Source: an uncultured Oscillospiraceae bacterium (lineage in GTDB: Bacteria > Bacillota > Clostridia > Oscillospirales > Acutalibacteraceae). Taken from it: a stretch of DNA of 43,481 nt. Below, piece after piece: positions 4,392-24,542 of the stretch (its first letter is position 1; every line of letters begins with the position of its first letter). The position numbers were made by a program, and so were the translations under genes. The stretch is taken from positions 1-43,481 of the forward strand of contig CASDTR010000061.1 of the NCBI GenBank assembly GCA_949283785.1, in the 5' to 3' direction. The notes under the pieces were generated by a model, which was given only the letters and a program-made list of their open reading frames with translations, had not been told where the DNA came from and made no database searches.

Positions 4392-4423
4392 CGGCAGCTT
4401 CCCGTTACCGCTTGAGGCTGCCG
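4392..4423. terminator. Hairpin after the GH2-GH78 operon
   Basis: Arms CGGCAGCTTC (4392-4401) and GAGGCTGCCG (4414-4423) pair over 10 bp with one G-U. The plus-strand tail is A-rich (AAAAATATTT), so it is a poor terminator in that direction. The sequence starting at 4382 is repeated at 4703 in the next, stronger terminator (17 of 19 bases), and repeat copy A lies between them. Confidence 0.5.
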
Positions 4424-4702
4424 AAAAATATTTAATTCAGCACTCACCCTGTCTCCATTGTGTAAAGCAGGCTAAGCCTGCACCCAATTCGCGGCAAGCT
4501 ATGCTTGCAGGCCTGTCGCACACCGAATTGCGATTAAAACAAACTGTACCCGCCCGCAAGACGGCTTTCATATTGACAGAGGGATTGTATATGAAGAAGC
4601 TATGATACAGCGCCGTTTTCCGATGCCCCTTGGCACAAAACGGCACTGTAAATAATTATGAGGATAAAACTATGAGGATAAAAAAACTCTATCGGTATAC
4701 TT
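4401..4702. repeat. Dispersed repeat, copy A (about 300 bp, non-coding)
   Basis: This is the only content of the 391-nt gap between the GH78 gene and birA. It shares blocks in the same order with the copy at 24243-24542: TTCAGCACTCACCC (4436-4449), GCCTG-ACCCAATTCG (4476-4491), a TGTACC-GCCCGC block (4544-4557) followed by ACGGCTTTCATATTGACA (4560-4577), and AAGCTATGATACAGCGCCG near 4596. With the copy near 21.8 kb it shares GCTTGCAGGCCTGTCGC (4503-4519). It is bracketed by direct repeats at 4382-4400 and 4703-4721, identical at 17 of 19 positions. A short tandem duplication (TATGAGGATAAAA, near 4658 and 4671) lies at its right end. No plausible gene is seen on either strand. Confidence 0.75.
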
Positions 4703-4740
4703 AAAAAGAGAGTGACAGCTTTCCGCTGCCCCTCTCTTTT
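4703..4740. terminator. Bidirectional intrinsic terminator
   Basis: AAAAGAGAGTGACAGC pairs with GCTGCCCCTCTCTTTT around a TTTCC loop, with two mismatches. A-rich and T-rich flanks make it work in both directions. It lies between the 3' end of the plus-strand glycosidase region and the 3' end of minus-strand birA. Confidence 0.8.
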
Positions 4741-4768
4741 CATTTTGTGATTTATCTCTTTTTTTGCC

Positions 4769-5761
4769 TTATCTCTTTCTTATTGAAACCTCGCCCGATG
4801 AAATTACGGCGGTTTCGCCTGAATCGTCATATCTCACTATGAGCCCGCCCTTTTCGTCAACGTCAAGGGCTTTGGCGTTTTTTTTCTCACTGCCCCTTAT
4901 GACGTATACATCGCTGCCGATTATCATGGAGTGCTCCCTGTATTCGTCAATGAAGGCGGCGGGGTCGGGCTTTCGGCAAAGCTCGAAGGTTTCGAGGATT
5001 ATCTGCGCCAGCAGCTCGTTTCTCGTAACGGGAGGAGTCTCGTTTTCATAAAGTGAGCCCGCCCTGTTTTCGCTTTCGGGCACAAGGGAGGAAATGTCCG
5101 AGGAAAAATTTACCCCTATTCCGGGAATAACACATTCAACGTTTCCGCTCTCAAAGTCGGTGACGGCCTCGGTGAGTATGCCGCACACCTTTTTGTCCCC
5201 GAGATAGATGTCGTTGACCCATTTTATGGAGGTCTGTTTGCCCGTGCATTTTTTTATGGCTCTCATAACAGCCACCGATACTGCCGTGGTCACAAGCACG
5301 CAGTCCTCAGCGTATATGCCGGGGCGCAGGATGACGGAAACGTAAATTCCGCCCTCGGCGGGAGACTTGAAGGTGCGGCCCATTCGTCCTCTGCCCCCCG
5401 TCTGCTCCAAAGCGATAACGACAGTGCCGTCCTCACAGCCCGCTGCGGCCAGCTCCTTGGCGGTGGTGTTGGTGGACTGAAGGGATTTGTATAAATTTAT
5501 ATCGGCCTTGTATTTGTCAAAAAATCCGTTTTTTTCGAGGAAGAGGGTTACGCCCTCCTTCGATATTACGTCGCAGTCGGCTTTCAGGGTATAGCCAGTC
5601 CCGCGGTCTGAGATAATGTCGTAGCCCTCTTCTTTCAGTTCGGTTACGGCTTTCCAGACGGCGTTGCGTGAAATGCCGAGCATACCCGCTATTTCGTTTC
5701 CGCCTACGGGCTTGCCTCTGTTTTCCTCTAAAATAGTTATGATTTTGCTTTTGGACGGCAT
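4769..5761 (-). CDS. birA: Bifunctional biotin-protein ligase / biotin operon repressor BirA
   Basis: The protein has 330 residues. It combines an N-terminal winged helix (about 1-60, with GMLGISRNAVWKAVTEL as the DNA-recognition region) with a biotin-protein ligase domain. The biotinyl-AMP loop GGRGRMGR is at about 122-129, KWVNDIYL near 180 stands where the family usually has KWPNDI, and KKVCGIL follows. It attaches biotin to acyl carrier subunits and in Firmicutes represses biotin synthesis or uptake genes. I chose the ATG at 5761: the upstream in-frame GTG at 5776 is part of the SD (GTGAGGTG), which sits 7 nt before this ATG. No biotin genes are nearby, so its operators must lie elsewhere. 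It is divergent from uvrC. Confidence 0.95.
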   Translation of the reverse strand: MPSKSKIITILEENRGKPVGGNEIAGMLGISRNAVWKAVTELKEEGYDIISDRGTGYTLKADCDVISKEGVTLFLEKNGFFDKYKADINLYKSLQSTNTTAKELAAAGCEDGTVVIALEQTGGRGRMGRTFKSPAEGGIYVSVILRPGIYAEDCVLVTTAVSVAVMRAIKKCTGKQTSIKWVNDIYLGDKKVCGILTEAVTDFESGNVECVIPGIGVNFSSDISSLVPESENRAGSLYENETPPVTRNELLAQIILETFELCRKPDPAAFIDEYREHSMIIGSDVYVIRGSEKKNAKALDVDEKGGLIVRYDDSGETAVISSGEVSIRKR

Positions 5762-5788
5762 TTTAAAACACCTCACTTTGATTTAAAC

Positions 5789-5817
5789 AGTATACCAAAG
5801 ATACGTCGGCGGGTCAA
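5789..5817 (-). promoter_or_regulatory. Sigma-A promoter of birA
   Basis: On the minus strand TTGACC and TATACT are separated by 17 nt, about 28 nt upstream of the chosen birA start. Confidence 0.82.
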
Positions 5818-5885
5818 ACCTGCAAACGGCTTTAAAACGGCAGCAAAAGGAAAATTTTTCCGCAGGGTTTGCGCCTTACCCGTCA

Positions 5886-5914
5886 TTGACTAAAAAAACC
5901 TTTTATTGTAAAAT
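5886..5914 (+). promoter_or_regulatory. Sigma-A promoter of uvrC
   Basis: TTGACT and TAAAAT are separated by exactly 17 nt. The predicted transcript begins near 5921 and has a leader of about 100 nt before the uvrC start. Confidence 0.82.
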
Positions 5915-5932
5915 CGAATACGGATATTTTAA

Positions 5933-6001
5933 CGGGCGGTGCAAGTCAAAAGCCCGATCATTCATCCCCTTTTTCCGCTTGCGAAAAGGAGAAAAGGGGA
6001 T
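5933..6001 (+). other. Two hairpins in the uvrC 5' leader
   Basis: CGGGC (5933-5937) can pair with GCCCG (5952-5956). ATCCCCTTTT (from 5964) pairs with AAAAGGGGAT ending at 6001. The second hairpin ends 8 nt before the uvrC SD. There is no U-tract, so it is not an ordinary terminator, and I recognise no riboswitch family. Confidence 0.55.
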
Positions 6002-6019
6002 TTAAGGCAGGTGAGAAAA

Positions 6020-7858
6020 ATGAACGAAAGACTCGGATATCTGAGAAAGAAATCAATGGCTCTGCCCCTTAACCCCGGGGTATATATAATGAAGAACAAA
6101 AAGAACGAGATAATATATATCGGTAAGGCCAAGCTCCTGAAAAACCGCGTGAGCCAGTATTTCGGCTCTCAGGCGAGGCATACGGTGAAGGTTCTGAAAA
6201 TGGTGGAAAACGTCTACGATTTTGACTATATCCTTACCGACAGCGAATTTGAGGCTCTCGTTCTGGAATGCAGCCTTATAAAGCAGCACATGCCGAAATA
6301 CAACATCCTTTTAAAGGACGACAAGGGCTATCACTATATAAAGATAACAAAAGAGCAGTGGCCGAGGATAACCGCCGAAAAGCAGATGCTCGATGACGGT
6401 GCCGAATATATAGGACCCTATACGGGGGCCTTTTCGGTAAATCAGGCCGTAGAGGAGGCGACGAAGATTTTCCGCCTTCCCGTCTGCGGAAAGCAGTTCC
6501 CGAGGGACATAAACAGAAGCTCGAGGCCGTGCCTTAACTATTTTATAAAAAGGTGCTCCGCTCCCTGCGCGGGAAAGATCACATGCGGTGAGTATAACGA
6601 ATCGGTGCGTCAGGCGGTGGATTTTCTTAAGGGCGGAAGCCGCAAGGCGTTAAGGCGCATGAATGAGGAAATGGAAAAGGCGGCGGAAAACCTGGAGTTT
6701 GAGAAGGCCGCATCTTTAAGGGACAGAATAAGGGCCATAGAAAAAATAAACGAAAAGCAGAAGGTTGTGGCCAATAACGTTGAAGAGCAGGATGTATTCG
6801 CGGTTGTGCAGAGCGAAAAGACCTTCTGCCTTATGGTTCTGCGCTTTACGGGGGGCAGGCTCAGCGACAGCGAGCATTTCTTCCTGGAGCCCGATAAGGA
6901 CCTTCCCCAGCTCCGCCATGAGTTCCTTATGGGCTATTACTCCATGCACGACAGGGTGCCGCGCCGTGTGACCGTGGACGGCGAGGTAAGCGACATAGAT
7001 CTCATAACCCGCTGGCTCAGCGAGAAGGCGGGGCGCAAGGTCACGGTGGCAGTGCCCGAAAGGGGCGAGCAGGCGCATATTCTCGAAATGTGCCGCAGCA
7101 ATGCCGCCGAAAAGCTGGCTCAGAAGCTGGGACGCGGAGGCAGGGAGACCTCGGCTCTTGACGAGCTTGCGCGTTTACTGGGTCTTGATAAAATTCCCCG
7201 CTACATTGAGGCCTACGATATTTCCCACACGGCGGGAAGCGACAACGTAGGGGGAATGGTGGTGTTCCTCGACGGGCAGCCCTATAAAAAGGCCTACAAG
7301 CGCTTTTCGATAAAGGGCTTCGAGGGTCAGGACGACTGCGCCTCCATGGCGGAGGTGCTTATGCGCCGTTTTAAGCATTACTACGAGGAAGCGCCCCATT
7401 CAAACGAAGGCTTCGGCAGACTTCCCGACCTTATTCTCCTTGACGGCGGACAGGGTCAGGTCAACGCCGTCATGCCCGTTTTAAAATATTATAACCTTGA
7501 TGTTCCCGTTTTCGGCATGGTAAAGGACGACCGTCACCGCACCAGGGCCATAGCTCAGAACGGCGGGGAGATAGCCATAAATTCAAAGCGTCAGGTGTTT
7601 ACCCTTGTCTCCGATATTCAGGAGGAGGTCCACCGCTGGGCTATAGGCTATCACAGAAAGAAGCACACAAAAAAGCTGCTCACCTACGGCCTTACGGATA
7701 TTAAGGGCATAGGGGAAAAAACTGCGGCTAATCTGCTTAAATCCATGAAAACTATAGATAATATAATGAACGCCGACGAAGAGGCCCTTAAGGGTGTAAA
7801 GGGCGTCACTGAACCCCAGGCAAAGGCCGTTTATGAATATTTTCATCCCCATAGTTAA
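6020..7858 (+). CDS. uvrC: Excinuclease ABC subunit C, UvrC
   Basis: UvrC (612 residues) makes the two incisions around bulky DNA lesions once UvrB is loaded. The N-terminal GIY-YIG nuclease is visible (GVYIM at 20-24, YIGKAK at 33-38, SEFEAL near 75). A UVR/UvrB-binding helix lies at about 208-243 (EKAAENLEFEKAASLRDR). The RNase H-like 5' nuclease has EAYDISH and LILLDGGQGQ, and a C-terminal helix-hairpin-helix (DIKGIGEKTAANLL) is present. An in-frame GTG at 5939 would add 27 residues but falls in the leader hairpins. The ATG at 6020 follows an AGGCAGGTGAG SD and gives the usual UvrC N-terminus. uvrA and uvrB are not in the window. Confidence 0.97.
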   Translation: MNERLGYLRKKSMALPLNPGVYIMKNKKNEIIYIGKAKLLKNRVSQYFGSQARHTVKVLKMVENVYDFDYILTDSEFEALVLECSLIKQHMPKYNILLKDDKGYHYIKITKEQWPRITAEKQMLDDGAEYIGPYTGAFSVNQAVEEATKIFRLPVCGKQFPRDINRSSRPCLNYFIKRCSAPCAGKITCGEYNESVRQAVDFLKGGSRKALRRMNEEMEKAAENLEFEKAASLRDRIRAIEKINEKQKVVANNVEEQDVFAVVQSEKTFCLMVLRFTGGRLSDSEHFFLEPDKDLPQLRHEFLMGYYSMHDRVPRRVTVDGEVSDIDLITRWLSEKAGRKVTVAVPERGEQAHILEMCRSNAAEKLAQKLGRGGRETSALDELARLLGLDKIPRYIEAYDISHTAGSDNVGGMVVFLDGQPYKKAYKRFSIKGFEGQDDCASMAEVLMRRFKHYYEEAPHSNEGFGRLPDLILLDGGQGQVNAVMPVLKYYNLDVPVFGMVKDDRHRTRAIAQNGGEIAINSKRQVFTLVSDIQEEVHRWAIGYHRKKHTKKLLTYGLTDIKGIGEKTAANLLKSMKTIDNIMNADEEALKGVKGVTEPQAKAVYEYFHPHS

Positions 7859-7894
7859 ATTTTGCCCTCAAATTGTTAAATTTAATGTTGCATA

Positions 7895-7924
7895 TTGACA
7901 AAAAGACGTGAAAAGTGTGATAAT
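7895..7924 (+). promoter_or_regulatory. Promoter of rsmD-coaD operon
   Basis: Consensus TTGACA is followed after 18 nt by GATAAT, in the 94-nt gap between uvrC and rsmD. Confidence 0.78.
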
Positions 7925-7952
7925 AAAAGGACAAAATATTATTGGAGAATAA

Positions 7953-8504
7953 GTGCGTATGCGTGTTATAACAGGAACTGCCGGAGGCAGAAAATTGATA
8001 ACCCTGGAGGGGGAGGACGTGCGTCCCACCACCGACAGAGTAAAGGAAGCCATGTTCAGCATTATTCAGTTTGAGCTTGAGGGCAGAAGGGTGCTGGATA
8101 TGTTTGCGGGCAGCGGACAGCTGGGAATAGAGGCTTTGAGCAGGGGCGCCGAATCGGCGCTTTTTGCCGATGCAGACAGCCGCGCCGTGGAAATAGTAAA
8201 GAAAAACCTTGCCTCCTGCGGCTTAAAGGACAGGGCTGTCGTAGTCAATACCGACAGCTTTGCTGCCATAGCCTCGGGCGGCTTTGACATTGCATTTTTG
8301 GACCCGCCCTACGGCAAGGGCATTTTGCAGAGGGCTGTTTTGGCAGTTGCGGATAAAATGAATCCGGGCGGAGTTATAATATGCGAATCTCCCTACGGAG
8401 AGGAGATGCCCGAAAATGCGGGACGCTTTTCGAAGTACAGGACGTATAAATACGGTAAAACAGAGGTTACCGTTTACAGAGAGAGTGAGGCGGAGGGTAT
8501 ATGA
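7953..8504 (+). CDS. rsmD: 16S rRNA (guanine966-N2)-methyltransferase RsmD
   Basis: This 183-residue Rossmann-fold SAM methyltransferase has the RsmD N-terminus MRVITGTAGGRKL, the SAM-binding motif DMFAGSGQLGIEALSRGA (about 49-66) and the catalytic LDPPYG (about 117-122) of amino-group methyltransferases. It methylates G966 of 16S rRNA during 30S assembly. A GTG at 7953 and an ATG at 7959 are both possible starts after the GGAG at 7944; MRVI at 7959 matches the family best, while SD spacing fits the GTG better. Its last bases overlap coaD (ATGA), a common rsmD-coaD pairing in Firmicutes. Confidence 0.95.
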   Translation: MRMRVITGTAGGRKLITLEGEDVRPTTDRVKEAMFSIIQFELEGRRVLDMFAGSGQLGIEALSRGAESALFADADSRAVEIVKKNLASCGLKDRAVVVNTDSFAAIASGGFDIAFLDPPYGKGILQRAVLAVADKMNPGGVIICESPYGEEMPENAGRFSKYRTYKYGKTEVTVYRESEAEGI

Positions 8505-8983
8505 AAATCGCGGTTTGCCCGGGAAGCTTTGACCCTGTGACTTTGGGGCATCTCGATATAATTACGAGAAGCGCGAAAATATTCGATAAAGTAATAGTGG
8601 TTGTCATGAAGAATTTTCAGAAGACCCCTATGTTTACGGCGGAGGAGCGCGTGGATTTTCTCAGACGCTGTACCTTCCACCTTTCGAATGTGGAAATAGA
8701 CGCCTATTCGGGACTCCTTGCCGATTACGCGAGTCAGCACGGGGCGGTTGCCATAGTCAAGGGACTCAGGGCGGTATCAGACTTCGAGTATGAATTCCAG
8801 CAGGCGCTTACAAATAAGAAGCTCAATCCCGAGCTTGAAACCGTATTTATCACCACCAGCTCCGAGCATATGTTTTTAAGTTCAAGCGTGGTAAAGCAGG
8901 TGTGCCATCTGGGAGGGGATATCTCTACCTTTGTGCCTCCCGAGATACAGTACGACATTATAAAACGCATTCAGAAGGCTTAA
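8501..8983 (+). CDS. coaD: Phosphopantetheine adenylyltransferase (PPAT)
   Basis: This 160-residue enzyme catalyses the penultimate step of coenzyme A synthesis, transferring AMP from ATP to 4'-phosphopantetheine. It shows the nucleotidyltransferase signature PGSFDPVTLGHLDII (TxGH at about 14-17), GLRAVSDFEYEFQ (about 86-98) and the C-terminal FLSSSVVKQV that contacts ATP. The length is typical of the hexameric bacterial enzyme. It overlaps rsmD by 4 nt, with its SD (GGCGGAGGG) inside rsmD, so translation is coupled. Confidence 0.97.
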   Translation: MKIAVCPGSFDPVTLGHLDIITRSAKIFDKVIVVVMKNFQKTPMFTAEERVDFLRRCTFHLSNVEIDAYSGLLADYASQHGAVAIVKGLRAVSDFEYEFQQALTNKKLNPELETVFITTSSEHMFLSSSVVKQVCHLGGDISTFVPPEIQYDIIKRIQKA

Positions 8984-9005
8984 ACAGAAAGGACGGCGTG
9001 CGCTT

Positions 9006-9605
9006 ATGGCCAAACACAGCGACGGTATACCGAAGAATATAGAAAACATTATTACGGAGCTCGAGGAGCTTGTGGATAAGGGAACGACAATAGCTTTTAC
9101 TTCAAAGGTTGTTGTGGATGTGGATGATCTTAAACACATAATCGAGGATCTGAACCTTAATATTCCCGAAGAGGTGAAGCAGGCGAGGGCCATAGTAGTT
9201 GACAGAATGGAGATTCTCAACGCCGCCAAGAAGGAAGGGGAAAAGATAATCGCAAAAGCCAAGGAGCAGGCGGCAAGGCTTGTTGAGGAGCATGAGATTA
9301 TGCAGACAGCAAAAGCTCAGGCCAATGACCTGCTTTCAAAGGCTAAGGCCCAGGCAAATCTCACCGTAGCCACGGCTCAGGAAAAGGCGGACGGAATTAT
9401 CCGTGACGCCAAGGAGTATTCTGATGAGACGACCGCTCAGGCTGACCGCTGGTCAAAGGAGATGCGCACGGCAGCCGGCGATTTTGTTGACAGCGTAATG
9501 CGCGACTCGGAGGAAGTGTTTACAAGAGGCCTTAAGGACATAAAGCGCGTTCGTGCAAATCTTGCGGCGGCAGGGGTACACGGCTCCGACGAGGAGAAAA
9601 AGTAA
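9006..9605 (+). CDS. Coiled-coil protein of unknown function, DivIVA/ATP-synthase-b-like
   Basis: The protein has 199 residues, no signal peptide and no membrane segment. After a short helical start (about 10-60), residues 70-170 are a long charged helix rich in Ala, Lys, Glu and Gln (for example IAKAKEQAARLVEEHE and AKAQANDLLSKAKAQA), typical of a coiled coil. Such sequences are often labelled 'ATPase' or DivIVA-like on composition alone, and I see no nucleotide-binding motif. The gene is 22 nt after coaD behind an AAAGGACGG SD and ends at a strong terminator, so it is probably the third gene of the rsmD-coaD operon. A structural or cell-division role is possible but unproven. Confidence 0.8.
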   Translation: MAKHSDGIPKNIENIITELEELVDKGTTIAFTSKVVVDVDDLKHIIEDLNLNIPEEVKQARAIVVDRMEILNAAKKEGEKIIAKAKEQAARLVEEHEIMQTAKAQANDLLSKAKAQANLTVATAQEKADGIIRDAKEYSDETTAQADRWSKEMRTAAGDFVDSVMRDSEEVFTRGLKDIKRVRANLAAAGVHGSDEEKK

Positions 9606-9620
9606 ACTTAAATATAAAAA

Positions 9621-9657: not shown

Positions 9658-9680
9658 TCAATGTTATGTTATGTGCCGAT

Positions 9681-12868: not shown

Positions 12869-12936
12869 ATCAGAGCAGGCAGTTGTACGGACCTTGTACA
12901 CCGCAAAAAAATTATATTGCACAGGAGGAAAGCAAA

Positions 12937-15795
12937 ATGTCAAAAAGCAAAAAGCTGTTAAGCGTTATTCTTGCTCTGGTAATGGTATTTTCGGCAGTGT
13001 CCGCGGCTCTCGTGAGTTTTGCGGCAAGTCCCGATGATGTTACAGAGAGAATAAACGCTTTCAGTGCAACCACCGGAAAGGACGCATCGGCAGAGGATAT
13101 AGCAGAGTTCGAGTCCGTTGCTGCCGACTATAAGTCTCTTACTCAAGCACAGAAGGACGAACTTGACATAATCGCCACGGGAAAGCTCTTTAAGCTGGCC
13201 TGGGACAGGGCTTACTATGTAAAGGGCTCCGGAGCGGAAACTCCTCTTAAGGGAGAAGAGCTTTATCTTGCGGCTGATGAAATGCAGGACGACCTTCTCG
13301 GCTTTACTGATCTTATGAAAGCTGCTCAGAATTTTGCCAAGGAATTCTATGGTTATAAATTTGAAGCTGCGGAAGGCGGCAGAGAGAGAAAGCTTACTGA
13401 TCTGACTTATGTACAGTATTGGTTTGACGGAAATATCAAGGCTACTCCCGAAGAGATCGGCAAGGTATACGAGGAAATGTGCGAAAAGTATGCTGCTCTC
13501 GGCCAGGCCAAGAGATATCTTCCCATGATTTATGATTATTACAGCTGCGGCTTTGCCAGGGATGCACTCTATGACGTAGACGCCCATATCAGCAAGATCT
13601 TCAATTTGGAGCTTGCCTATCAGCAGGCATATAAAAACGCTCCCGGCTTCGATTATCCCACAGCTCCCGTATCACCCAATTATTTTGACAAAGAGAAATA
13701 TCCTTTAGGTAAAGAGTATCCTCAGTATATAGCCGATAAGAACGAATATGATGAGGTTCTCAAGCCTGCATACGACAAGGCCAAGGCCGAATACGACGGA
13801 GCGCTGGCGGAAAAGACAGCGGACTATCAGGCGGCTGCATGGGCACGGATTCTTGAGTTAGATCCGGGTCTTGTAAAGGCTTCCTATGACCTTACCAACA
13901 AGATGACCTCAGCCCTTGAGGCCTATAACGGCGACCCCACTGCCGAAAATGAAAAAGCGGTAGCCGACACCTATACAGAGTATGAAGCATTATCCGCTAC
14001 CGACAAAGCTTTCTTTGACAGCTCCTCATTTAAGTATGATTACTATGACGGAACTCAGAAAACGTCGGCAAACATTCTCAAGCTCGTAAAACCGGTTGCG
14101 GGCAAAGGAGCAACAGCGGCGTTTATCGAGACGGTGAATGCGGCGTCGGCGCCTTATTCTCAGGAGGAACTTGATAAAGCCTTAGAGGCATGGAATAAGG
14201 TATTTGCCGAATCAAAATCCGAGATACCGACGGAAGTCATAAATAAATTCAAGGAAATAATCAAGGGCGTTCCCGCTTCCGAGGAAAAGCCCGTGCTTCC
14301 CGACTGGACCCGCCCCGACCTCAATTATCCTCCCCTTACGAGCGATAAGAGTCTCGGACTTCTTGTCAAAATTCTTGACGGTGTAACGGGTCTTGCAATT
14401 AAGCAGCAGGGATATGCGAATATCAACGCTCTTCTCGAAAAGGAGGTCTATACAAACGCAGCTGTGGCGAAGGCGGTGTCGGCTCTCTATCCCGCTCTCA
14501 ACGATCTTCTCAATGACGCGGGAGCAGGAATCGCTACGGCCCTTTTGAAGATCAAACCCAATCAGGTTGCGGATCTTTTGGTTGAAGAGAAATTTGCCGT
14601 TGCCGCTTCTGCTTTCAAAGCTCTCGGCAGCAATATCGACGATTGGAAAAACCTTGATGTTTCCGCGGTTACAAACGGATATTTCGGCTTTAACGACGGT
14701 GACAGAGACGGCTTCATAAACGCCCTTGCGGCAGTGCTCAGAGGACTTACAGTTCCCCTTACAAGCACTCTCGAGGTTCAGTTTGCCAACGTCGTTGTGG
14801 AGAGCGGTTCGTATCCCACAGGCGAATATAAGCCGGGTCTCTACGATAACCTTCTTCCCGTTCTCGAGGCTCTGGGTATAGATGATCTCATGACCTCAGA
14901 AGCGTACAGCGAAGCTTGTCTTGGCGCGGCTACGGCAGGGGAAAAGGCCGACGCGGCAATTGTTCCCATAGTCAGCGCTGTATTTTCACTGGTCGATGAT
15001 ATTTCGGCAAATCCCGTATCTGCGATAGTTGACCTTCTCCCCAAGGTTGCCCGTCTGTTCTCAGACAACATCCTCAACAATCAGCTCGGAGAGATTTACA
15101 ACAACCTTCCCGCACTTCTGGGAATGTTCTTAAAGCCCGAGATGCTCGTTATTGATCCCTCCATGATCATGGGCCTTGTAAATTCTCTTGTTTCAAATAT
15201 TCAGATAGGCAGCGCCACTCTGAGCCTTAATTTCTCCGATCCCGATTGGGCGCTTCTTGCTTCAACGGCAAAGCCGGTTGTAGTGGAAAGCGTAAGCAGA
15301 TTCAACGCCTACGGTGTGGGATTTGAGACAAACAAGGGTGACTCATTCCTTGTAATATTCCGTTATCTCTTCAATAATCTTACGGAACAGAGCAATATGG
15401 CATCCATCAAGGAGGCCGTAAAAGCCCTCGTAAAGGATTTCGTACTTTCCAACGTTCTCGGTCAGATGCTCACAACTGTAGAGGGCATGGACGCCGACGA
15501 AGCCCTTGTAATGGTATGCAATATTCTTGACGTTCCGGAAATCCCCGAAGATCCTTCTACAGAGGAGCCTTCAACCCAAGAGCCTTCAACGGAAGAGCCT
15601 TCAACTGAGGCACCCTCCACAGAGGAGCCATCGACAGAAGAGCCTTCAACTGAGGCACCCTCTACAGAGGAACCCTCAACGCAAGAGCCTTCAACACAAG
15701 CTCCCTCAAACGGTGACAACCTTATGTTAGGCGCGTTTGCTGCAATGGCAGCGCTTGCAGGTGCAGCGGTTGTTATCACTAAAAAGAGGAAGTAA
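12937..15795 (+). CDS. Large secreted surface protein with Pro-Ser-Thr repeat tail
   Basis: The 952-residue protein starts with a signal peptide (KSKKLLSVILALVMVFSAV, then AALVSFAAS). The body, about 850 residues, is helical with many short Ala/Asp/Glu/Tyr-rich segments; two regions, about 35-75 and 320-360, look loosely duplicated (Y-x-x-L-x-x-x-x-K). Ten PST[EQ][EA] units follow (about 873-922), then SNGDN, a hydrophobic helix and KKRK. That end resembles a sortase sorting signal of the PxTGD type, but with Asn in place of Thr and no LPXTG, so covalent anchoring is uncertain and membrane anchoring is possible. I chose the ATG after ACAGGAGGAAAG. I recognise no enzymatic domain. It is monocistronic and ends in a terminator. 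Confidence 0.85.
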   Translation: MSKSKKLLSVILALVMVFSAVSAALVSFAASPDDVTERINAFSATTGKDASAEDIAEFESVAADYKSLTQAQKDELDIIATGKLFKLAWDRAYYVKGSGAETPLKGEELYLAADEMQDDLLGFTDLMKAAQNFAKEFYGYKFEAAEGGRERKLTDLTYVQYWFDGNIKATPEEIGKVYEEMCEKYAALGQAKRYLPMIYDYYSCGFARDALYDVDAHISKIFNLELAYQQAYKNAPGFDYPTAPVSPNYFDKEKYPLGKEYPQYIADKNEYDEVLKPAYDKAKAEYDGALAEKTADYQAAAWARILELDPGLVKASYDLTNKMTSALEAYNGDPTAENEKAVADTYTEYEALSATDKAFFDSSSFKYDYYDGTQKTSANILKLVKPVAGKGATAAFIETVNAASAPYSQEELDKALEAWNKVFAESKSEIPTEVINKFKEIIKGVPASEEKPVLPDWTRPDLNYPPLTSDKSLGLLVKILDGVTGLAIKQQGYANINALLEKEVYTNAAVAKAVSALYPALNDLLNDAGAGIATALLKIKPNQVADLLVEEKFAVAASAFKALGSNIDDWKNLDVSAVTNGYFGFNDGDRDGFINALAAVLRGLTVPLTSTLEVQFANVVVESGSYPTGEYKPGLYDNLLPVLEALGIDDLMTSEAYSEACLGAATAGEKADAAIVPIVSAVFSLVDDISANPVSAIVDLLPKVARLFSDNILNNQLGEIYNNLPALLGMFLKPEMLVIDPSMIMGLVNSLVSNIQIGSATLSLNFSDPDWALLASTAKPVVVESVSRFNAYGVGFETNKGDSFLVIFRYLFNNLTEQSNMASIKEAVKALVKDFVLSNVLGQMLTTVEGMDADEALVMVCNILDVPEIPEDPSTEEPSTQEPSTEEPSTEAPSTEEPSTEEPSTEAPSTEEPSTQEPSTQAPSNGDNLMLGAFAAMAALAGAAVVITKKRK
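15553..15702 (+). repeat. Ten tandem 15-nt units coding PST[EQ][EA]
   Basis: The units read PSTEE, PSTQE, PSTEE, PSTEA, PSTEE, PSTEE, PSTEA, PSTEE, PSTQE, PSTQA. Codons vary between units (CCT, CCC or CCA for Pro; several Thr codons), so this is a selected protein repeat rather than a freshly slipped tract. It forms a flexible linker between the body and the C-terminal anchor. Confidence 0.92.
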
Positions 15796-18420: not shown

Positions 18421-18424
18421 TAAA

Positions 18425-18958: not shown

Positions 18959-18987
18959 TAAACTGCGGGAATCATATTCATAAAGGT

Positions 18988-19130: not shown

Positions 19131-21659
19131 TTGTTGTTTGAAAAAAGCGGTACATATAAAGTCTATTCAAATAAATATACTCAGGTGGAGGCAAAGGGAC
19201 AGAGGAAAAAGAAGGTGCGCCTCTGGAGAGAAGGCTTTATGACGGGCAACGGAGAAAACGGCGTCATAAATGCGGGTTCTCCCTATGACGATACGCTCAT
19301 CTATCAGAACATAAATTTTATAATGCCCTGCGACACCATACGCGACTCCTTTGATATATCAGAGCGTCTGTCCGAAGCGAGGCAGACGATTATAAAGGGC
19401 GAGTCCTACGTTACCGAGGACGGAAGGTGGTATTCCAATTACTGTTTTCATCCCGGCGGACAGTTAAGACTCACTCAGAAGAAGCAAAGGCTTTCCGATT
19501 ATGTGCGCTGGTGCGACTATGAGACAGGCGAGGCCGTGATAAAATACGAGGATAAAAGGGGCGTCTGGGAAAGGCGTACCTTCACCTCCCGCACCGATAA
19601 CGTGACGGTGACGAAAATCGGTTCCTCGTCAAAGGGTGAAAAGGTGAATCTGATTATTTCCTTTGACGACATCGCCAAAATGTATAAAAACCGCGAGGCG
19701 GGGCAGGAAGAGCTTTTAAGGTATAAAAAGCTTGTTGGCGATAAGGGCGAGTACATTGCCGAAATTGCCCACTATCCGAGCTATGAGGGCTCAGAGCTTA
19801 AAGACGCGGGCTATGCCACCTTGGTGATGATATATACGCAAGGGGGCAAAAGGGAAAAGCTCCTTCTTAAGGACAGTGGAGACAGGACGAATGCGGGCAG
19901 GGAGCCGAATCCTGCCGTAAAGGTCTCCGACGCCGAGGCGGTGTATCTCATAGCCGTTTCCGACAGGGATTTGAATATGGGAGCTTTTGATGAGTTTGAA
20001 AAGGAGCAGGAGTATCTCCTTATAAAAAGTCTTCTGGCAAGGTGCGGGAAGGTCTTTGAAAAATATGCCGACGGCGGCTGTTTCAGCTTTGAAAAAGCAC
20101 TCGAACCCAGCGCCGCAGAGCAGAGCGCCCTTTTTAACGCCGTTAAATTTAAACTGGGAACGGGGGAGGAACGTGACCTTCCCAATGAAAAGCTTCTCTC
20201 CCTTCAAAGAAAGAGCAAAGCTCTTAATGCCGAAATGGTGGAGAGGGCGTACAATACTGGCAGATACGCTATGATATGCTGCAGCGGACATGATTCAATC
20301 AGCCGCCTTTACGGCATCTGGACGGGGGAATGGGCTCCCCGGTGGAACGGAAGCTACACAATGGACGCCAACGTAAACCTGCAATGCTCGGCTATGAACA
20401 GCGCCGACTGTGTTTCTTACGGAGAAAGCTATATACGCTTTGTCTTGAAGCAGATTGAACACTGGAAGATAAACGCCCTGCGCTGTTACGGCTTTAAAAA
20501 CGCTATTTTGGCTCCCGCCAATACGGACGGAACAAATGCGCTTATAGTGGAATACAATACTGTCTATCCCTTTGAATACTGGAACCACGGAGCAGCGTGG
20601 ATGCTTCAGCCCATATATGAATTTTACCTTTCCTACGGAAACAGAACCGTCAGCGTGGACGGAGAAGAAAAAAGGCTTTTGGAGGATATCCTCCTGCCTC
20701 TCCTTCAGCTGAACGTCAATTTCTGGGTCCAGATGCTCACCCCCGAATACTATACCGATTCAAAGGGCGATATGCATTATGAAGAGGGCAAGAGCGTTTT
20801 GGCCGACGGCGAATATTACTGTATCGTCCCGGGAAATTCCCCCGAGAATATGCCGAAAAATCTTACATCCGCAAGGGCGGCCAACTGTGCGGCGGATATA
20901 AGCGCGGCGAGAAAGAGCTTTGAGATGCTCATAAATGCGCAAAAGGATATTGACGAAGAGAAGTACAGGGAGGATATTGAGGTCTGGGAGCAGTTTATAA
21001 AGAAGCTTCCCCCTTATCTTTACGACGAAACGGGAGCTATCAAGGAGTGGGCGGCAAGCTGTTTTGAGGAAAACAACAAGCACCGCCATATAAGCCACCT
21101 GTACTGCGCGTGGCCTCCAAACGAGACGCAGAATAACGAGGAGCTTGCGAAGGCCTGCTTACAGGCTCTCAAAAACAGGAACAGCGCGGGAAAAAAGAGC
21201 GAGGAAACCCAGACCCATGGCTGGCTTCATAAGGGACTCGTAGCTGCAAGGCTCAAGGACCGTGAGCAGGTGGAGAAATGTCTCCGGGTACTTCTCACTA
21301 CAAAGGTTTACTATAATTCCATGCTCACTGACCACAATACGAACCGCGGCTCAGACTGCTTCTGCACCGACACCTCTCTGGGAATTTTAGGCGTCATAGA
21401 CGAAATGCTCATGTATTCAAACAGGGGAGTTATAGAGGTAATGCCCGCCCTTATAAAGGATTTGAGGGAAGGCAGCGTCGAGGGGCTTATGGCAAACACT
21501 CAGGCCGCGGTTTCAATCAAATGGAAGGATACAGCGGTAAAGGTGGCCGTTACTAGCGGCGCCGAACAGACCATAGCCGTTTCCTGCGCAGGACGCGGCG
21601 GCAAGAAAGAGAGCTTTGAAAAGGGAGAGACGAAGGTCTTTGACTTTACATTAAGCTGA
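19131..21659 (+). CDS. GH95-like glycosidase (alpha-L-fucosidase / alpha-L-galactosidase type)
   Basis: This 842-residue protein has the GH95 layout: an N-terminal beta domain (GFMTGNGENGVINAG near 35-49, usually LPIGNGRLGA), a linker, an (alpha/alpha)6 barrel and a short beta tail. Family blocks are YGIWTGEWAPRWNGSY (about 394-409) with N414 and N416 in DANVNLQ, WNHGAAWMLQPIYEFYL, NSPEN with E572, and HRHISHLY (651-658). These match the Asn pair and Glu of characterised fucosidases, though the sequence is divergent. There is no signal peptide. The start is a TTG at 19131 or 19134 after AGTAGGGAAAAGG; no ATG fits. It stands alone, so its glycan partner enzymes are elsewhere. Confidence 0.82.
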   Translation: MLFEKSGTYKVYSNKYTQVEAKGQRKKKVRLWREGFMTGNGENGVINAGSPYDDTLIYQNINFIMPCDTIRDSFDISERLSEARQTIIKGESYVTEDGRWYSNYCFHPGGQLRLTQKKQRLSDYVRWCDYETGEAVIKYEDKRGVWERRTFTSRTDNVTVTKIGSSSKGEKVNLIISFDDIAKMYKNREAGQEELLRYKKLVGDKGEYIAEIAHYPSYEGSELKDAGYATLVMIYTQGGKREKLLLKDSGDRTNAGREPNPAVKVSDAEAVYLIAVSDRDLNMGAFDEFEKEQEYLLIKSLLARCGKVFEKYADGGCFSFEKALEPSAAEQSALFNAVKFKLGTGEERDLPNEKLLSLQRKSKALNAEMVERAYNTGRYAMICCSGHDSISRLYGIWTGEWAPRWNGSYTMDANVNLQCSAMNSADCVSYGESYIRFVLKQIEHWKINALRCYGFKNAILAPANTDGTNALIVEYNTVYPFEYWNHGAAWMLQPIYEFYLSYGNRTVSVDGEEKRLLEDILLPLLQLNVNFWVQMLTPEYYTDSKGDMHYEEGKSVLADGEYYCIVPGNSPENMPKNLTSARAANCAADISAARKSFEMLINAQKDIDEEKYREDIEVWEQFIKKLPPYLYDETGAIKEWAASCFEENNKHRHISHLYCAWPPNETQNNEELAKACLQALKNRNSAGKKSEETQTHGWLHKGLVAARLKDREQVEKCLRVLLTTKVYYNSMLTDHNTNRGSDCFCTDTSLGILGVIDEMLMYSNRGVIEVMPALIKDLREGSVEGLMANTQAAVSIKWKDTAVKVAVTSGAEQTIAVSCAGRGGKKESFEKGETKVFDFTLS

Positions 21660-21698
21660 GTCCGCATAATAAAGAGACGATAAAAGCAATAAATAAAA

Positions 21699-21730
21699 GA
21701 ATCACCCGAGGCAAAAGCTTCGGGTGATTC
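21699..21730 (-). terminator. Terminator serving the minus-strand GNAT gene
   Basis: A 13-bp stem (GAATCACCCGAGG with CTTCGGGTGATTC, one G-U). Read on the minus strand it is followed by TTTTATTTATTG; on the plus strand there is no T-tract, so GH95 is poorly served. Repeat copy B begins about 3 nt to its right. Confidence 0.75.
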
Positions 21731-21732
21731 AG

Positions 21733-21926
21733 CTTGTTTGAAAACTGAAATTCCGCACTTACTCTTGTCTCCCTTGTGTAAAGGGAGATGTAAAGGCATG
21801 AGCCTTGACAGAGGGATTGGTAAGCTGAGCTTGCAGGCATGTCGCGCAGCAGGCTGAGCCTGGACTCAATGCGCGAACTCTGGTTGCTGTAAAAATTAAC
21901 TATACCTGCCCGCAAAAGGCTGTCTT
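21733..21926. repeat. Dispersed repeat, copy B (shorter)
   Basis: It aligns with copy C from CTGAAATTC (21745) through GTCTCCCTTGTGTAAAGGGAGATGT, which forms the hairpin TCTCCCTT/AAGGGAGA at 21768-21788, and again at TATACCTGCCCGC (21901-21913). With copy A it shares AAGCTGAGCTTGCAGGCATG-TCGC near 21822. It carries GACAGAGGGATTG at 21808, as copy A does at 4575. The right-hand part seen in copies A and C is missing: it stops against the end of the GNAT gene. Confidence 0.72.
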
Positions 21927-21944
21927 GAAAAGGACGGAGGAATA

Positions 21945-22370
21945 TTACACAAACGCAATCATATCAATATGTGGGATGTGCTCGTCCATGTATTCCTCTC
22001 CCACGGTTTTGAATCCGAATTTCTCATAAAAGCCCACGGCGTAGGTCTGTGCGCCGATGTGCAGCTCCTTAGCGCCCATTTCCTTTGCTTTTTCGATAAT
22101 CAGAGTAAGGAGCTCTGCACCGATATTCTTGCCCCTGTATTCCTTTAACACTGCAATTCTGCCGGGCTTGTAAACTCCCTCCGAGAGCTTTATAACGCGT
22201 GCGGTGGCTACGGCTTTGCTTTCGTCTGTGAGCACAAGATGCCAGCAGTCCTTGTCGGCCTCGTCAAATTCCAGCTCAATGGGATATTCCTGTTCCCTTA
22301 CAAAAACTTCTATTCTTATTTCTCTGGAAAGGGGATAGTCCTCTCCGGGAGCGTACCAGACAGTATTCAA
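21945..22370 (-). CDS. GNAT N-acetyltransferase, ElaA-like
   Basis: This 141-residue protein has REIRIEVFVREQEYPIELEFDEADKD near its start, the ElaA-type R.xVFvvEQ..py.E.D..D pattern. The acetyl-CoA loop is YRGKNIGAELL (about 85-95), then GAQTYAVGFYEKFGF near the end. Substrates of this group are mostly unknown. An in-frame GTG at 22385 lies in GTGGGAGGA, which is the SD itself; the TTG at 22370 is 7 nt further on and is the likelier start. Confidence 0.87.
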   Translation of the reverse strand: MNTVWYAPGEDYPLSREIRIEVFVREQEYPIELEFDEADKDCWHLVLTDESKAVATARVIKLSEGVYKPGRIAVLKEYRGKNIGAELLTLIIEKAKEMGAKELHIGAQTYAVGFYEKFGFKTVGEEYMDEHIPHIDMIAFV

Positions 22371-22478
22371 AAAAATTCCTCCCACTCTGCGTATTTTACT
22401 TGAAATATAGTAACATAAAAAAAGATGTGGGTAAATGAGAAAAATTTAAAAAATATTATGCAGGGTTCCATTTTTTTA

Positions 22479-22506
22479 TTGCAAAAACAAAGGGTGGTGA
22501 TATAAT
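22479..22506 (+). promoter_or_regulatory. Promoter of ilvE
   Basis: TTGCAA and TATAAT are 16 nt apart, with an extended -10 TG (TGATATAAT). Confidence 0.8.
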
Positions 22507-22554
22507 TAAAAACAGAAAGCCTTATATGGCATAATTTTTCAGAGGTGTTCATTT

Positions 22555-23625
22555 ATGCAGGAAATCAAAGTTGAACTTACAAAAAATCCCAAGGAGAAGC
22601 CTCAGGACCAGAGCAAGTTGGGCTTCGGCAACTATTACACCGACCATATGTTCCTTATGAATTACGATGAGGGACAGGGCTGGCATGACCCGAGAATAGT
22701 CCCCTACGCTCCCATCCCCCTTGACCCGGCCGCCATGTGCCTTCACTACGGTCAGGAAGTTTTTGAGGGACTCAAGGCTTACAGAACTGCCGACGGCAGA
22801 ATCCTTCTTTTCCGCCCCGACAGAAACATGGCGAGACTTAACGTCTCCAACGACCGCCTTTGCATTCCTCCCATCGACGAAGAGTTTGCAATCGAAGCGG
22901 TCAAAAAGCTCGTACTTGTTGATAAGGACTGGATTCCCACAGAAGAGGGAACCTCACTTTATATAAGACCCTACATTTTCGCCGTTGACGCTCATGTTGG
23001 CGTACATCCCGCTCATCACCTTATTTTCGCCATTATCCTTTCACCTGTAGGCGCTTACTATCCCGAGGGACTTAACCCCGTTAAGATCTATGTTGAGGAT
23101 GAGTATGTCCGCGCAGTCAAGGGCGGAATGGGCTTTACAAAGACAGGCGGCAACTATGCAGCATCCCTGAAGGCTCAGGCAGAGGCCGAGAAGAAGGGCT
23201 ACACTCAGGTGCTTTGGCTTGACGGCGTTGAGCGCAAGTATATTGAGGAAGTCGGTACAATGAACGTGTTCTTTGTAATCGACGACGAGGTTATCACTCC
23301 CGAGCTCAGAGGCAGCATCCTTTCAGGCGTTACTCGTATGTCATGCATCGACATTCTCCGCTCATGGGGCATGAAGGTCAGCGAGCGCAGGCTTTCTATT
23401 CAGGAAGTTGCAAAGGCTGCCGAAGAGGGCAGACTTAAAGAGGCCTTCGGAAGCGGTACGGCTGCCGTTATCTCTCCCATCGGCGAGCTTCGCTGGGGCG
23501 ATGACGTAATGGTTATCAACGACGGCAAGATCGGCGAAATTTCCGCAAAGCTTTACGACAACCTTACGGGAATTCAATGGGGAAAGCTTCCCGATGAATT
23601 CGGCTGGACAGTTGAGGTAAAATAA
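22555..23625 (+). CDS. ilvE: Branched-chain amino acid aminotransferase
   Basis: This 356-residue class IV PLP aminotransferase interconverts leucine, isoleucine and valine with their 2-oxo acids. Visible landmarks are HYGQEVFEGLKAYR (64-77), FRPDRNMARLN, YIRPYIFA, the PLP lysine K196 in GFTKTGGNYAASLKAQ, IEEVGTMNVFFV, and GSGTAAVISPIG near the C-terminus. It is the long, BCAT-like form, not the short E. coli type. The SD AGAGGTG is well placed. It is monocistronic, with its own promoter and terminator. Confidence 0.96.
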   Translation: MQEIKVELTKNPKEKPQDQSKLGFGNYYTDHMFLMNYDEGQGWHDPRIVPYAPIPLDPAAMCLHYGQEVFEGLKAYRTADGRILLFRPDRNMARLNVSNDRLCIPPIDEEFAIEAVKKLVLVDKDWIPTEEGTSLYIRPYIFAVDAHVGVHPAHHLIFAIILSPVGAYYPEGLNPVKIYVEDEYVRAVKGGMGFTKTGGNYAASLKAQAEAEKKGYTQVLWLDGVERKYIEEVGTMNVFFVIDDEVITPELRGSILSGVTRMSCIDILRSWGMKVSERRLSIQEVAKAAEEGRLKEAFGSGTAAVISPIGELRWGDDVMVINDGKIGEISAKLYDNLTGIQWGKLPDEFGWTVEVK

Positions 23626-23643
23626 TCACAGGGCTTTTATCAG

Positions 23644-23677
23644 AATCCCGTATACCAAAAGGTATATGGGATTTTTT
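23644..23677 (+). terminator. Terminator after ilvE
   Basis: AATCCCGTATACC pairs with GGTATATGGGATT around AAAA, followed by a T-tract. Confidence 0.92.
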
Positions 23678-23717
23678 AAAGCCGTGACAATTATCTTATG
23701 AAAGGCGGTTGGAATTT

Positions 23718-24194
23718 ATGGCGGAGGTTAAGACCAACGCTATGCGTATTCTCGAAAAAAACAAAGTGCCCTATAAAATGTATACCTATGAAACCGACGG
23801 GAATATCGACGGGGTAAGCGTCGCCAAAAAGCTGGGGCAGGATGTTGAAGCCGTATACAAAACCCTTGTGACGGTGGGCAAAAGCGGCGGATACTATGTT
23901 TTTGTAATTCCCGTCGAAAAGGAGCTGAGCCTTAAAAAGGCGGCCAAGGCGGCGGGGGAAAAGTCCGTGGAAATGATACACGTCAAGGATATCAACAAGG
24001 TGACGGGATATATAAGGGGAGGCTGCTCTCCCGTTGGAATGAAAAAGCTGTATCCGACCTTTATCAGCGATACCGCTTCCGAACGTGAAACCATAATCGT
24101 AAGCGGCGGCAAGATAGGCTTTCAGGTAGAGCTTTCCCCGCAGGCTTTGGCAGACGCAGTAAAGGCGAAATTTGCCGATATTATTATGGACTGA
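23718..24194 (+). CDS. ybaK: Cys-tRNA(Pro)/Cys-tRNA(Cys) deacylase, YbaK/EbsC family
   Basis: This 158-residue editing enzyme hydrolyses mischarged Cys-tRNA(Pro). It shows KTNAMRILEKNKVPYKMYTYE at the N-terminus, AVYKTLVTVGKSGGYYVFVIPVEKELSLKKAAKAAGEK (catalytic Lys within VYKTL), and VTGYIRGGCSPVGMKK, the G-G-x-S-P-x-G loop. The ATG at 23718 follows AAAGGCGG; an upstream TTG at 23709 overlaps the SD. Its aminoacyl-tRNA partner (proS) is not in the window. Confidence 0.94.
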   Translation: MAEVKTNAMRILEKNKVPYKMYTYETDGNIDGVSVAKKLGQDVEAVYKTLVTVGKSGGYYVFVIPVEKELSLKKAAKAAGEKSVEMIHVKDINKVTGYIRGGCSPVGMKKLYPTFISDTASERETIIVSGGKIGFQVELSPQALADAVKAKFADIIMD

Positions 24195-24217
24195 GAAAAG
24201 AAAACATGATATTTACC

Positions 24218-24246
24218 GCCCGTTTAAAGAGCTTCTTTAAGCTGGG
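24218..24246. terminator. Hairpin left of repeat copy C
   Basis: CCCGTTTAAAGA can pair with TTCTTTAAGCTGGG with one bulge. It is almost the same sequence as the terminator at 24543, identical at 24 of 25 bases over 24218-24242. No T-tract follows it, so by itself it would terminate weakly. Confidence 0.5.
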
Positions 24247-24542
24247 AGAGACTGTCGAAAAGCTGAAATTCAGCACTCACCCCAGTCTCCCTTGTGAAAA
24301 GGGAGATGTCAAAACGCAGTTTTGACATCAGGTATTGACAGGCTGAGCCTGTACCCAATTCGTGCCCTGAGTTACGGTAAAAACTCATTGTACCTGCCCG
24401 CGAGACGACTTTCATATAGACATAAGGATTTTATACGGAAAAAGCTTTGATGCTGCGCTGTTTTCTGTGCCGTATCGGATTTTATCTTAATTGTGCAAAA
24501 CAGCGAATCATAAACATCAAAATAACTTTAGCGACAAACTGA
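24243..24542. repeat. Dispersed repeat, copy C (about 300 bp, non-coding)
   Basis: The 486-nt gap between ybaK and the alcohol dehydrogenase gene consists of this element, its flanking hairpins and a promoter. It contains a hairpin TCTCCCTT/AAGGGAGA (24286-24306), a perfect 11-bp inverted repeat GATGTCAAAAC/GTTTTGACATC (24305-24329) and ACAGGC/GCCTGT just after. The blocks CAGGCTGAGCCTGTACCCAA (24340-24359) and ATTGTACCTGCCCGCGAGAC (24387-24406) match copy A. The bracketing direct repeats at 24218-24242 and 24543-24567 differ at one position and begin 325 nt apart, against 321 nt in copy A. It encodes nothing recognisable. Confidence 0.78.

Follow-up and report, generated by a model that had tools for sequence, protein, structure and literature searches.

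According to the available text of two reports (PMC4923244, PMC5678879), the staphylococcal elements IS1272 and TnSha1, of the IS1182 family, have as targets stem-loops of differing sequence, several of which are confirmed terminators. In the case of IS1272, the best-studied member of the family, insertion replaces the hairpin or removes part of it, and the target is not duplicated; duplication of the whole hairpin appears in Wan et al. (2017) as pathway b of a model only (PMC4923244, PMC5678879). A Vsr-like endonuclease, VsrA of Caulobacter, has been linked to the DNA-damage response (PMC12907096, in the text available). Here, we analyzed a dispersed repeat in a 43,481-nt contig (hereafter, the window) of an uncultured Oscillospiraceae bacterium. 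The repeat is a MITE and not primarily an RNA element; very probably, it is a transposase-less MITE that is mobilized in trans by an IS1182-family enzyme and duplicates terminator-like stem-loops at its target. The features of the three copies in the window are as follows.

4382..4412, + strand: copy 1, decayed left duplicate of the target hairpin (suffix-prefix overlap score against the right copy, 19; mismatched-pair maximum 13, n = 1190)
4414..4702, + strand: copy 1, long-form MITE whose inner core has decayed; its left end is GAGGCTGCCGAAAAA (nhmmer E = 1.2e-21, alignment)
4703..4740, + strand: copy 1, right duplicate of the target hairpin, ending in TCTCTTTT (fold, -15.8 kcal/mol)
21700..21729, + strand: copy 2, left-end hairpin AATCACCCGAGG..CTTCGGGTGATT, resembling a terminator (single hairpin at the matching site of sister species G002)
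21730..21942, + strand: copy 2, MITE without its right third, right end and right hairpin gone (nhmmer E = 1.5e-34; right limit placed by eye against the G002 site, nhmmer envelope 21730-21939)
21768..21819, + strand: copy 2, double-hairpin core (sequence)
24217..24247, + strand: copy 3, left direct repeat, a whole stem-loop with no T tract after it (27 of 31 aligned columns identical to the right repeat)
24248..24541, + strand: copy 3, complete long-form MITE (nhmmer E = 5e-64)
24248..24264, + strand: copy 3, left terminal inverted repeat GAGACTGTCGAAAAGCT (end comparison)
24525..24541, - strand: copy 3, right terminal inverted repeat, reading inward CAGTTTGTCGCTAAAGT; family consensus CAGCTTGTCGATAAAGT (end comparison)
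24286..24337, + strand: copy 3, double-hairpin core, TCTCCC..GGGAGA, TGTCAAAACGCAGTTTTGACA and tail GGTATTG (sequence; homologous to the ends of DUF559 elements)
24542..24572, + strand: copy 3, right direct repeat, a whole stem-loop that resembles a terminator, with a T-rich tract after it (repeat pairing, terminator scan)

All three copies were recovered (E-values from 1e-21 to 5e-64) with an nhmmer profile derived from 29 copies that lie outside the window, and 20 block-shuffled windows gave no match at E-values up to 10. Pairwise blastn connected copies 1 and 3 (best piece, E = 8e-17) and copies 2 and 3 (E = 1e-13). The preliminary description of three intergenic copies with shared ordered blocks is thus borne out, and its boundaries were roughly right, with ends shifted by at most about 16 bases. 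The family is much bigger than these three copies: the same genome contains at least 65 blastn pieces (40 of 109 candidates scored), and in the fetched stretches both ends could be paired for 35 copies. The elements are mostly ~190–320 bp long (171–465 bp for copies with direct repeats) and vary in both length and interior. The family was not found in phage and plasmid collections searched at distant sensitivity, and an exact-pattern scan of a named genome collection returned a single match, a Clostridia MAG from buffalo reticulum.

The most telling feature of copies 1 and 3, overlooked in the earlier description, is the duplicated hairpin on their flanks. Flanking direct repeats of 20–43 bp are present in 30 of the 35 paired copies, and in each case the repeat is an entire stem-loop whose sequence differs by site. 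The repeat scores exceed the 99th percentile of mismatched pairs (n = 1190) in these 30 copies and the maximum in 27. Repeat length follows that of the hairpin identified from the right flank by itself (r = 0.895; Spearman 0.85; n = 30); in 27 of the 30 cases, the score of this hairpin exceeds those of 99% of shuffled sequences. A T tract (at least five T in eight positions; 10% at nearby positions) follows the right hairpin in 25 of 30 copies and the left hairpin in 2 of 30; an A tract lies ahead of the left hairpin in 27 of 30 (11% at nearby positions). These counts over 30 copies are a better test than a simple promoter/terminator scan, which found 17 terminator-like sites against a shuffle mean of 11.5 and whose single entries are weak. 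The copies lie at gene 3′ ends: where both flanking ORFs were available (31 copies), neighbors were convergent in 19 cases, tandem in 12 and divergent in none, and the right hairpin of copy 1 itself sits between convergent genes. Five of the 35 paired copies have no direct repeat. For two of these, inspection by eye indicates that the right end was probably miscalled.

Sites matching copies 2 and 3 are short in G002 and carry a single hairpin, related in sequence at the site of copy 2 and different at that of copy 3; around copy 1, synteny is restricted to the right neighbor gene. Together with the inverted ends, target duplication and high copy number, these empty sites support the earlier suggestion of a non-autonomous mobile element.

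We next compared the MITE with IS1182-family elements. Its left end is identical at 16 of 17 positions to that of the IS in L198, and its right end at 15 of 17 to those of L094, L193 and others; a MITE variant from the sister species (L130) matches at 16 of 17. By chance, 20,000 random 17-mers, compared with the left consensus only, reached 14. The CAG-type subclade cannot be told apart by its ends alone, since L099, an IS without hairpins, still shares 14 of 17 positions with the left end of the MITE. Of 56 IS1182 loci fetched (L089–L118 and L191–L216), the 35 fuller matches were examined and the 21 shorter ones left out; six of the 35 were then dropped because they ran into contig ends (L090, L202), had no end pair (L192) or had ends that were not credible (L091, L097, L215). 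Among the remaining 29 copies with both ends defined, which represent 27 different ISs (L094/L118 and L203/L213 being duplicates), hairpin repeats occur at 10 of 16 CAG-type copies and at none of 13 with other ends. Nine of the ten are perfect repeats of 19–34 bp, and the tenth is 35 bp long with two differences; 810 mismatched pairs scored at most 9. For L193 and L199, palindromic repeats had misled the end search, and the ends were reset by eye. With a hairpin present on each side, 30 of 35 MITEs and these 10 of 16 CAG-type ISs differ from IS1272, whose target hairpin is deleted without duplication.

A tree of 28 transposases places the 13 from hairpin-ended ISs on one branch (support 92/91), 12 of them with support of 100/100, and the 15 others outside it. 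We assigned the group labels ourselves (L094 via its twin L118, L091 by eye); because the label test contrasts just the two labeled groups with each other, the grouping rests on the branch supports. Three of the six CAG-type copies without a hairpin repeat (L092, L099, L100) lie outside the hairpin branch. The other three (L093, L094, L191) have a hairpin on either side, but the two do not match, which we read as probable recombination between copies. The twin ISs differ in this respect, L118 having the repeat and L094 lacking it.

No IS1182 transposase (NF033551) was detected in the genome that carries the window (E up to 1e-3) or in three genomes of its genus, this one included (E up to 1e-10); a match was present in 29 of 250 genomes of the family. 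Hence, no mobilizer is seen in the same cell. MITEs commonly, but not necessarily, share a genome with an autonomous partner; here, the counts are 0 of 1 and 0 of 3 genomes, respectively. In other respects the repeat has what is expected of a MITE of the CAG-type IS1182 subclade: inverted ends like those of an IS of the family, the type of target and of duplication seen with the transposase-bearing elements, and short length without a transposase of its own.

In ordinary DDE transposons, the distance between the two cuts fixes how many target bases are duplicated. In the present case, the length of the duplication depends on that of the stem-loop, so the enzyme appears to sense the structure of its target and not a distance. 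The putative mobilizer, acting in trans, would be a DDE transposase of the IS1182 family, from the subclade with ends (C/G)AGNCTGTCGAWAA or close to it. It would recognize a target stem-loop, nearly always of intrinsic-terminator layout and probably extruded as a cruciform, and insert the element at the hairpin foot, with duplication of the whole hairpin. As a likely consequence, the T tract would be lost from the left hairpin and retained by the right one; transcription of the left gene would still terminate, with the MITE added to its message as a structured 3′ UTR. The element may in this way occupy a harmless niche, an intergenic place where a terminator can be left behind. The data fit the path of whole stem-loop duplication drawn as a possibility by Wan et al. 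(2017), and the nine perfect IS1182 hairpin pairs provide concrete natural cases for a pathway only sketched at that time. Points that count against this model are the negative searches for a mobilizer in this genome and genus, the paired MITEs and CAG-type ISs that carry no hairpin repeat, the different G002 hairpin at copy 3, the one-sided synteny at copy 1 and the removal of the hairpin by IS1272.

The preliminary description had also considered a structural RNA. A 3′-UTR regulator, attenuator or small RNA, functionally kept and dispersed secondarily, would account for the position at gene 3′ ends and for the folding of copy 3, which together with its hairpins is far more stable than shuffles (z -5.6; pairing between the two flanking hairpins contributes). 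It would also account for the second inner hairpin: when matched arms were compared with chimeras, 69 of 72 distinct hairpins folded better than the median chimera, i.e., complementarity is higher within than between copies. We nevertheless consider this reading very unlikely. Strand relative to the genes ending alongside shows no clear preference (28 same, 24 opposite), an Rfam scan of the window gave no match at the gathering threshold, and length and interior are variable, while only a DNA element accounts for the ends, the duplicated target and the empty sites. The covarying inner hairpins are, moreover, homologous to the ends of other elements, which weighs against structural RNA as the main reading. 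A permissive Rfam run returned a sub-threshold T-box elsewhere and three weak matches, which we took as chance.

That 30 of 35 paired copies are flanked left and right by the same hairpin could in principle mean that the hairpins belong to the element and travel along with it, or that they stem from gene conversion, instead of being a duplicated target. This is very hard to reconcile with hairpin sequences that match within a copy and differ between copies (median score 21 versus 3), with perfect IS1182 pairs at unrelated sites, or with the one hairpin of related sequence at the G002 site of copy 2. Equally improbable is another terminator-seeking element, either a remnant of a group IIC intron or a MITE of a different DDE family with long target duplications. 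In its favor, group IIC introns insert after terminator stems. To our knowledge, however, group II introns leave no duplication, and no intron family appeared in the Rfam scan at the gathering threshold; the nine perfect hairpin duplications of IS1182 elements and the match of 15–16 of 17 positions to their ends also speak against this reading.

The inner GGGAGA double hairpin of the MITE resembles the inverted ends of ~450-bp elements with a DUF559 nuclease in other genera. Matches confined to this core were found in 19 genomes of the family besides the present one and its sister, which supports the statement, in the preliminary description, that similar GGGAGA repeats occur in other Clostridia. 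Core-like ends flank DUF559 ORFs in inverted orientation; the direct-orientation control had a median of 28.5 and one value of 149, put down to tandem repeats. As to a REP/RAYT or IS200-type origin, the L127 ORF, the sole ORF scanned, had no HUH (Y1) family among its five hits, the best being DUF559. Two derivatives of DUF559 elements are 206/208 identical in unrelated flanks, which speaks more for transposition than for homing; a role of DUF559 as homing endonuclease thus seems the less favored option. Miniatures of 116–119 bp with two ends in G225 at first suggested numerous independent insertions but were set aside as proof of mobility because four of five lie, as judged by eye, within one larger repeated context. 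A search of four genomes of its genus (own included) found no empty site for one DUF559 element.

Tentatively, and with rather less than even confidence, we propose that the core is the end of an undescribed autonomous element of ~450 bp, moved by its DUF559 nuclease alone or with host repair, and that the MITE is a chimera carrying one such end. The element would encode only a Vsr-like nuclease of ~120–140 aa, carry double hairpins at its two ends in inverted orientation, usually one of each of two types, and give rise to ORF-less derivatives. If so, it would be among the smallest autonomous mobile elements and have no known transposase fold. The link suggests a large, apparently unrecognized family of mobile elements in these Clostridia-like genomes and makes DNA mobilization by a Vsr-like nuclease directly testable.

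With respect to known systems, the L127 ORF, in an element with ends like the MITE core, scores against PF04480 with E = 3e-31, as expected of DUF559/Vsr-like genes, whereas the available text on Caulobacter VsrA mentions no inverted hairpin ends (PMC12907096). Bacterial MITEs in general are likewise short, non-coding, intergenic and hairpin-rich, with inverted ends; the available text of a review names the terminator-like SPRITE, but no terminator-duplicating MITE (PMC10969869). IS1272/TnSha1 resemble the proposed mobilizer in transposase family and in stem-loop targets, but, as far as the available accounts go, IS1272 removes the hairpin that the MITE described here duplicates whole. CAG-type IS1182 elements, which are ~1.5–1.6 kb long, contain a transposase gene and were found neither in this genome nor in its genus, differ from the MITE in these respects; those of the same order (L089, L095, L096, L118, L193–L195, L197–L199) share with it both the ends and the duplication of a whole hairpin.

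The repeat in the window is a real MITE family (short, transposase-less elements) of IS1182 type whose target duplication, unusually, has the size of a structure. The preliminary description proposed three intergenic copies of about 300 bp, and a profile made from 29 copies outside the window recovered all three; 20 block-shuffled windows gave no match up to E = 10. The features are as follows.

4414-4702: MITE copy 1 (profile E = 1.2e-21), between alpha-L-rhamnosidase and biotin ligase genes
15532-15722: 15-bp tandem repeat, nine overlapping copies, within ORF 12883-15795, for which Pfam gives no match at 1e-5
21730-21939: MITE copy 2 (E = 1.5e-34), without the right third, between genes for a GH95 enzyme and a GNAT acetyltransferase
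24248-24541: MITE copy 3 (E = 5e-64), between genes for a tRNA-editing-domain protein and an iron alcohol dehydrogenase
37627-37884 (+): T-box leader match below gathering (76 bits, cut-off 93), immediately upstream of a threonyl-tRNA synthetase-like gene, 37958-39901
43303-43428: a fourth region, matched weakly by the MITE profile (E = 0.006), close to the end of the contig

The genome (2.41 Mb in 71 contigs, the window being contig 61) contains many further copies: blastn with copy 3 returned 65 pieces and 109 candidate places, 40 of which were scored. Among the matches listed, the window contig contributed copy 3 alone, so copies 1 and 2 are supported by other comparisons, including the profile. 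Patterns for the left end (consensus GAGACTGTCGAAAAACTAAAATTC) and the right end (CAGCTTGTCGATAAAGTTGTTTTT, read inward) gave 29 matches versus 0 for a reversed control and 42 versus 1 for a control, respectively. A short form (~190-210 bp) and a long form (~290-320 bp) differ, by eye, by an insert between copies of GACAGAGGGATTG; the short form may therefore be a deletion between these repeats.

Both ends were paired for 35 copies, sampled from stretches chosen for matching the MITE, and the bases immediately left and right of each were compared. The median overlap score was 21 in true pairs versus 3 in 1190 mismatched pairs; 30/35 copies exceeded the 99th percentile of the latter and 27/35 their maximum. 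The direct repeats flanking these 30 copies are 20-43 bp long and are essentially stem-loops. When a hairpin was sought in the right flank alone, it surpassed 99% of shuffles in 27/30 and began 0-3 bases from the MITE end in 28/30 (in the other two, the search picked a neighbouring hairpin); its length predicted repeat length (r = 0.895, Spearman 0.85, n = 30). The repeat was missing in five paired copies (C29:34407, C71:6202, C1:57150, C18:68652 and C55:4278, by contig and position); the right ends of C18:68652 and C55:4278 look wrongly called.

The flanking stem-loops are arranged like intrinsic terminators, in many cases in both directions. A T tract (5 or more T in a stretch of 8) ends the right-hand stem-loop in 25/30 copies, compared with 10% of nearby positions, and the equivalent A tract precedes the left-hand one in 27/30 (11% of nearby positions); a T tract follows the left-hand stem-loop in only 2/30. 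Within the window, the repeats around copy 3 occupy 24217-24247 and 24542-24572 and agree in 27/31 aligned columns. The right hairpin of copy 3 (24543-24571) is terminator-like with a T tract and was listed by a terminator scan that as a whole was only weakly above shuffles; the left one is absent from that list. Copy 1 is flanked by two decayed copies of one hairpin (overlap score 19), and copy 2 retains the left hairpin only.

The sister-species genome G002 is syntenic with the window around copies 2 and 3. There, 53 bp stand in place of 287 bp at copy 2 (21655-21941), and 56 bp in place of 385 bp at copy 3 (24204-24588). The G002 site for copy 2 holds a single hairpin, AATCACCTGAAG..CTTCAGGTGATT, evidently the counterpart of the hairpin left of copy 2; that for copy 3 holds a single hairpin in the same place with a different sequence. 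The copy 1 site is weak evidence because the right neighbour gene alone is conserved. When neighbours were picked mechanically (ORFs of at least 80 codons), both could be assigned for 31/35 copies: 19 lay between convergent genes, 12 between tandem and none between divergent genes. Where a gene's 3' end pointed at the element, the MITE lay on that gene's strand 28 times and on the opposite strand 24 times.

The IS1182 transposase (NF033551), proposed as the mobilizer, was not found in this genome, nor in any of three genomes of the genus, this one among them; matches occurred in 29/250 genomes of the family and, at a stricter cut-off, in 25/295 of the order. Repeat lengths in the IS1182 family span a wide range in ISfinder. 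Of 56 loci fetched, 35 were tried, and both ends were defined for 29 copies representing 27 different ISs. Palindromic direct repeats of 19-35 bp flank 10 of these copies, perfectly in nine; mismatched flank pairs (n = 810) scored at most 9 points. All ten belong to the 16 copies with CAG-type ends, compared with 0/13 for GGGG, GGGA, GGAG or GGCG ends. Among the remaining CAG-type copies, L093, L094 and L191 carry a hairpin on either side, but two different ones, and may have arisen by recombination between IS copies; L092, L099 and L100 have no hairpin repeat. A tree of 28 transposases places the 13 ISs with terminal hairpins (including L091, judged by eye) on one branch (support 92/91; 100/100 for 12 of them), and the other 15, L092, L099 and L100 included, outside it. 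The MITE left end matches the L198 IS in 16/17 bases and the right end matches L094, L193 and other ISs in 15/17; a G002 MITE variant (L130) matches the same group in 16/17. Random 17-mers (n = 20,000) reached at most 14 against the left consensus, as did hairpin-less L099, so the subclade assignment rests on ends and target behavior jointly.

The inner double hairpin, or core (TCTCCCTTGTGTAAAGGGAGATGTC-stem-GACAGAGGGATTG), is distributed far more widely than the MITE, with matches in 21/250 family genomes (up to three candidates scored per genome). In the 19 beyond this genome and G002, the match is confined to the core and its surroundings (query 36-110 of 219), where by eye the core often bounds small elements as a pair of inverted ends. 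Some of these elements carry a DUF559 gene (PF04480, E = 3e-31 for the one in G002), others a collapsed gene or none. DUF559, found in a Vsr-like nuclease of Caulobacter according to the accessible text of PMC12907096, is encoded in 33/120 family genomes; at the cut-off of that survey our genome has no such gene. At 28 of the 30 DUF559 loci fetched, upstream and downstream flanks were compared with 336 placements at other positions of these loci, a background that itself includes element-type hairpins. In 19 the flanks formed an inverted repeat scoring above the 99th percentile of this control; in nine they did not. Of 21 end pairs listed, 14 spanned 445-482 bp; the others were tandem, ORF-less or deleted forms.

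In G018, two 208-bp DUF559-element derivatives in which the gene is shortened (L133 1501-1709 and 1807-2015) are 206/208 identical, while their flanks are unrelated (best alignments 29/62 and 32/64), which argues for movement. An empty site was not found for the one DUF559 locus sought in four genomes. The first-hairpin closing pair and one tail base agree in 101/112 distinct ends (GC with T, 38; CG with G, 38; TA with A, 25), and 12/15 elements for which both ends could be classified (of 20 examined) pair a CG end with a GC end. The pattern may reflect a structural rule or simply three lineages. The second-hairpin stems show covariation: the median chimera folds less well than 69/72 distinct hairpins (15/16 in this genome). 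A complete DUF559 element in G002 (L127 1098-1553) has an outer flank resembling the MITE start (TTATTTCAGCACTCACCCC), suggesting how MITE and DUF559 end may have been joined. Next to another DUF559 element, L165 1346-1500 consists of ~51-bp tandem repeats of single element ends; L236-L239 (G225) are 116-117 bp elements in which just a short spacer separates the two ends, inside a larger repeated sequence. Titles of open literature using the word DUF559 indicate no mobile element, and combined searches found no closer paper, as judged from titles and abstract openings. The attached DUF559 elements, putative mobile elements, are a more novel lead than the MITE family.

The simplest account of the MITE target duplication is structure-directed insertion. 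The transposase would join the element to the 5' foot of the stem-loop on each strand, which would leave the entire hairpin as a single-stranded gap on both sides, to be filled by repair. No MITE that duplicates a whole hairpin turned up in the titles and abstract openings of the open papers searched, nor in the accessible text of PMC10969869. Palindromic targets of some IS1182 members were mentioned by Siguier et al. without detailed data, as cited in the accessible part of Wan et al. (PMC5678879). TnSha1/IS1272 uses hairpin targets, several of them confirmed terminators, with partial deletion and no duplication in the portion available (PMC4923244). In the accessible part of the Wan et al. 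model for IS1272, the hairpin-gap-and-repair route is pathway b, and IS1272 itself deletes the hairpin; in contrast, the MITE described here duplicates the whole hairpin, as in pathway b (PMC5678879).
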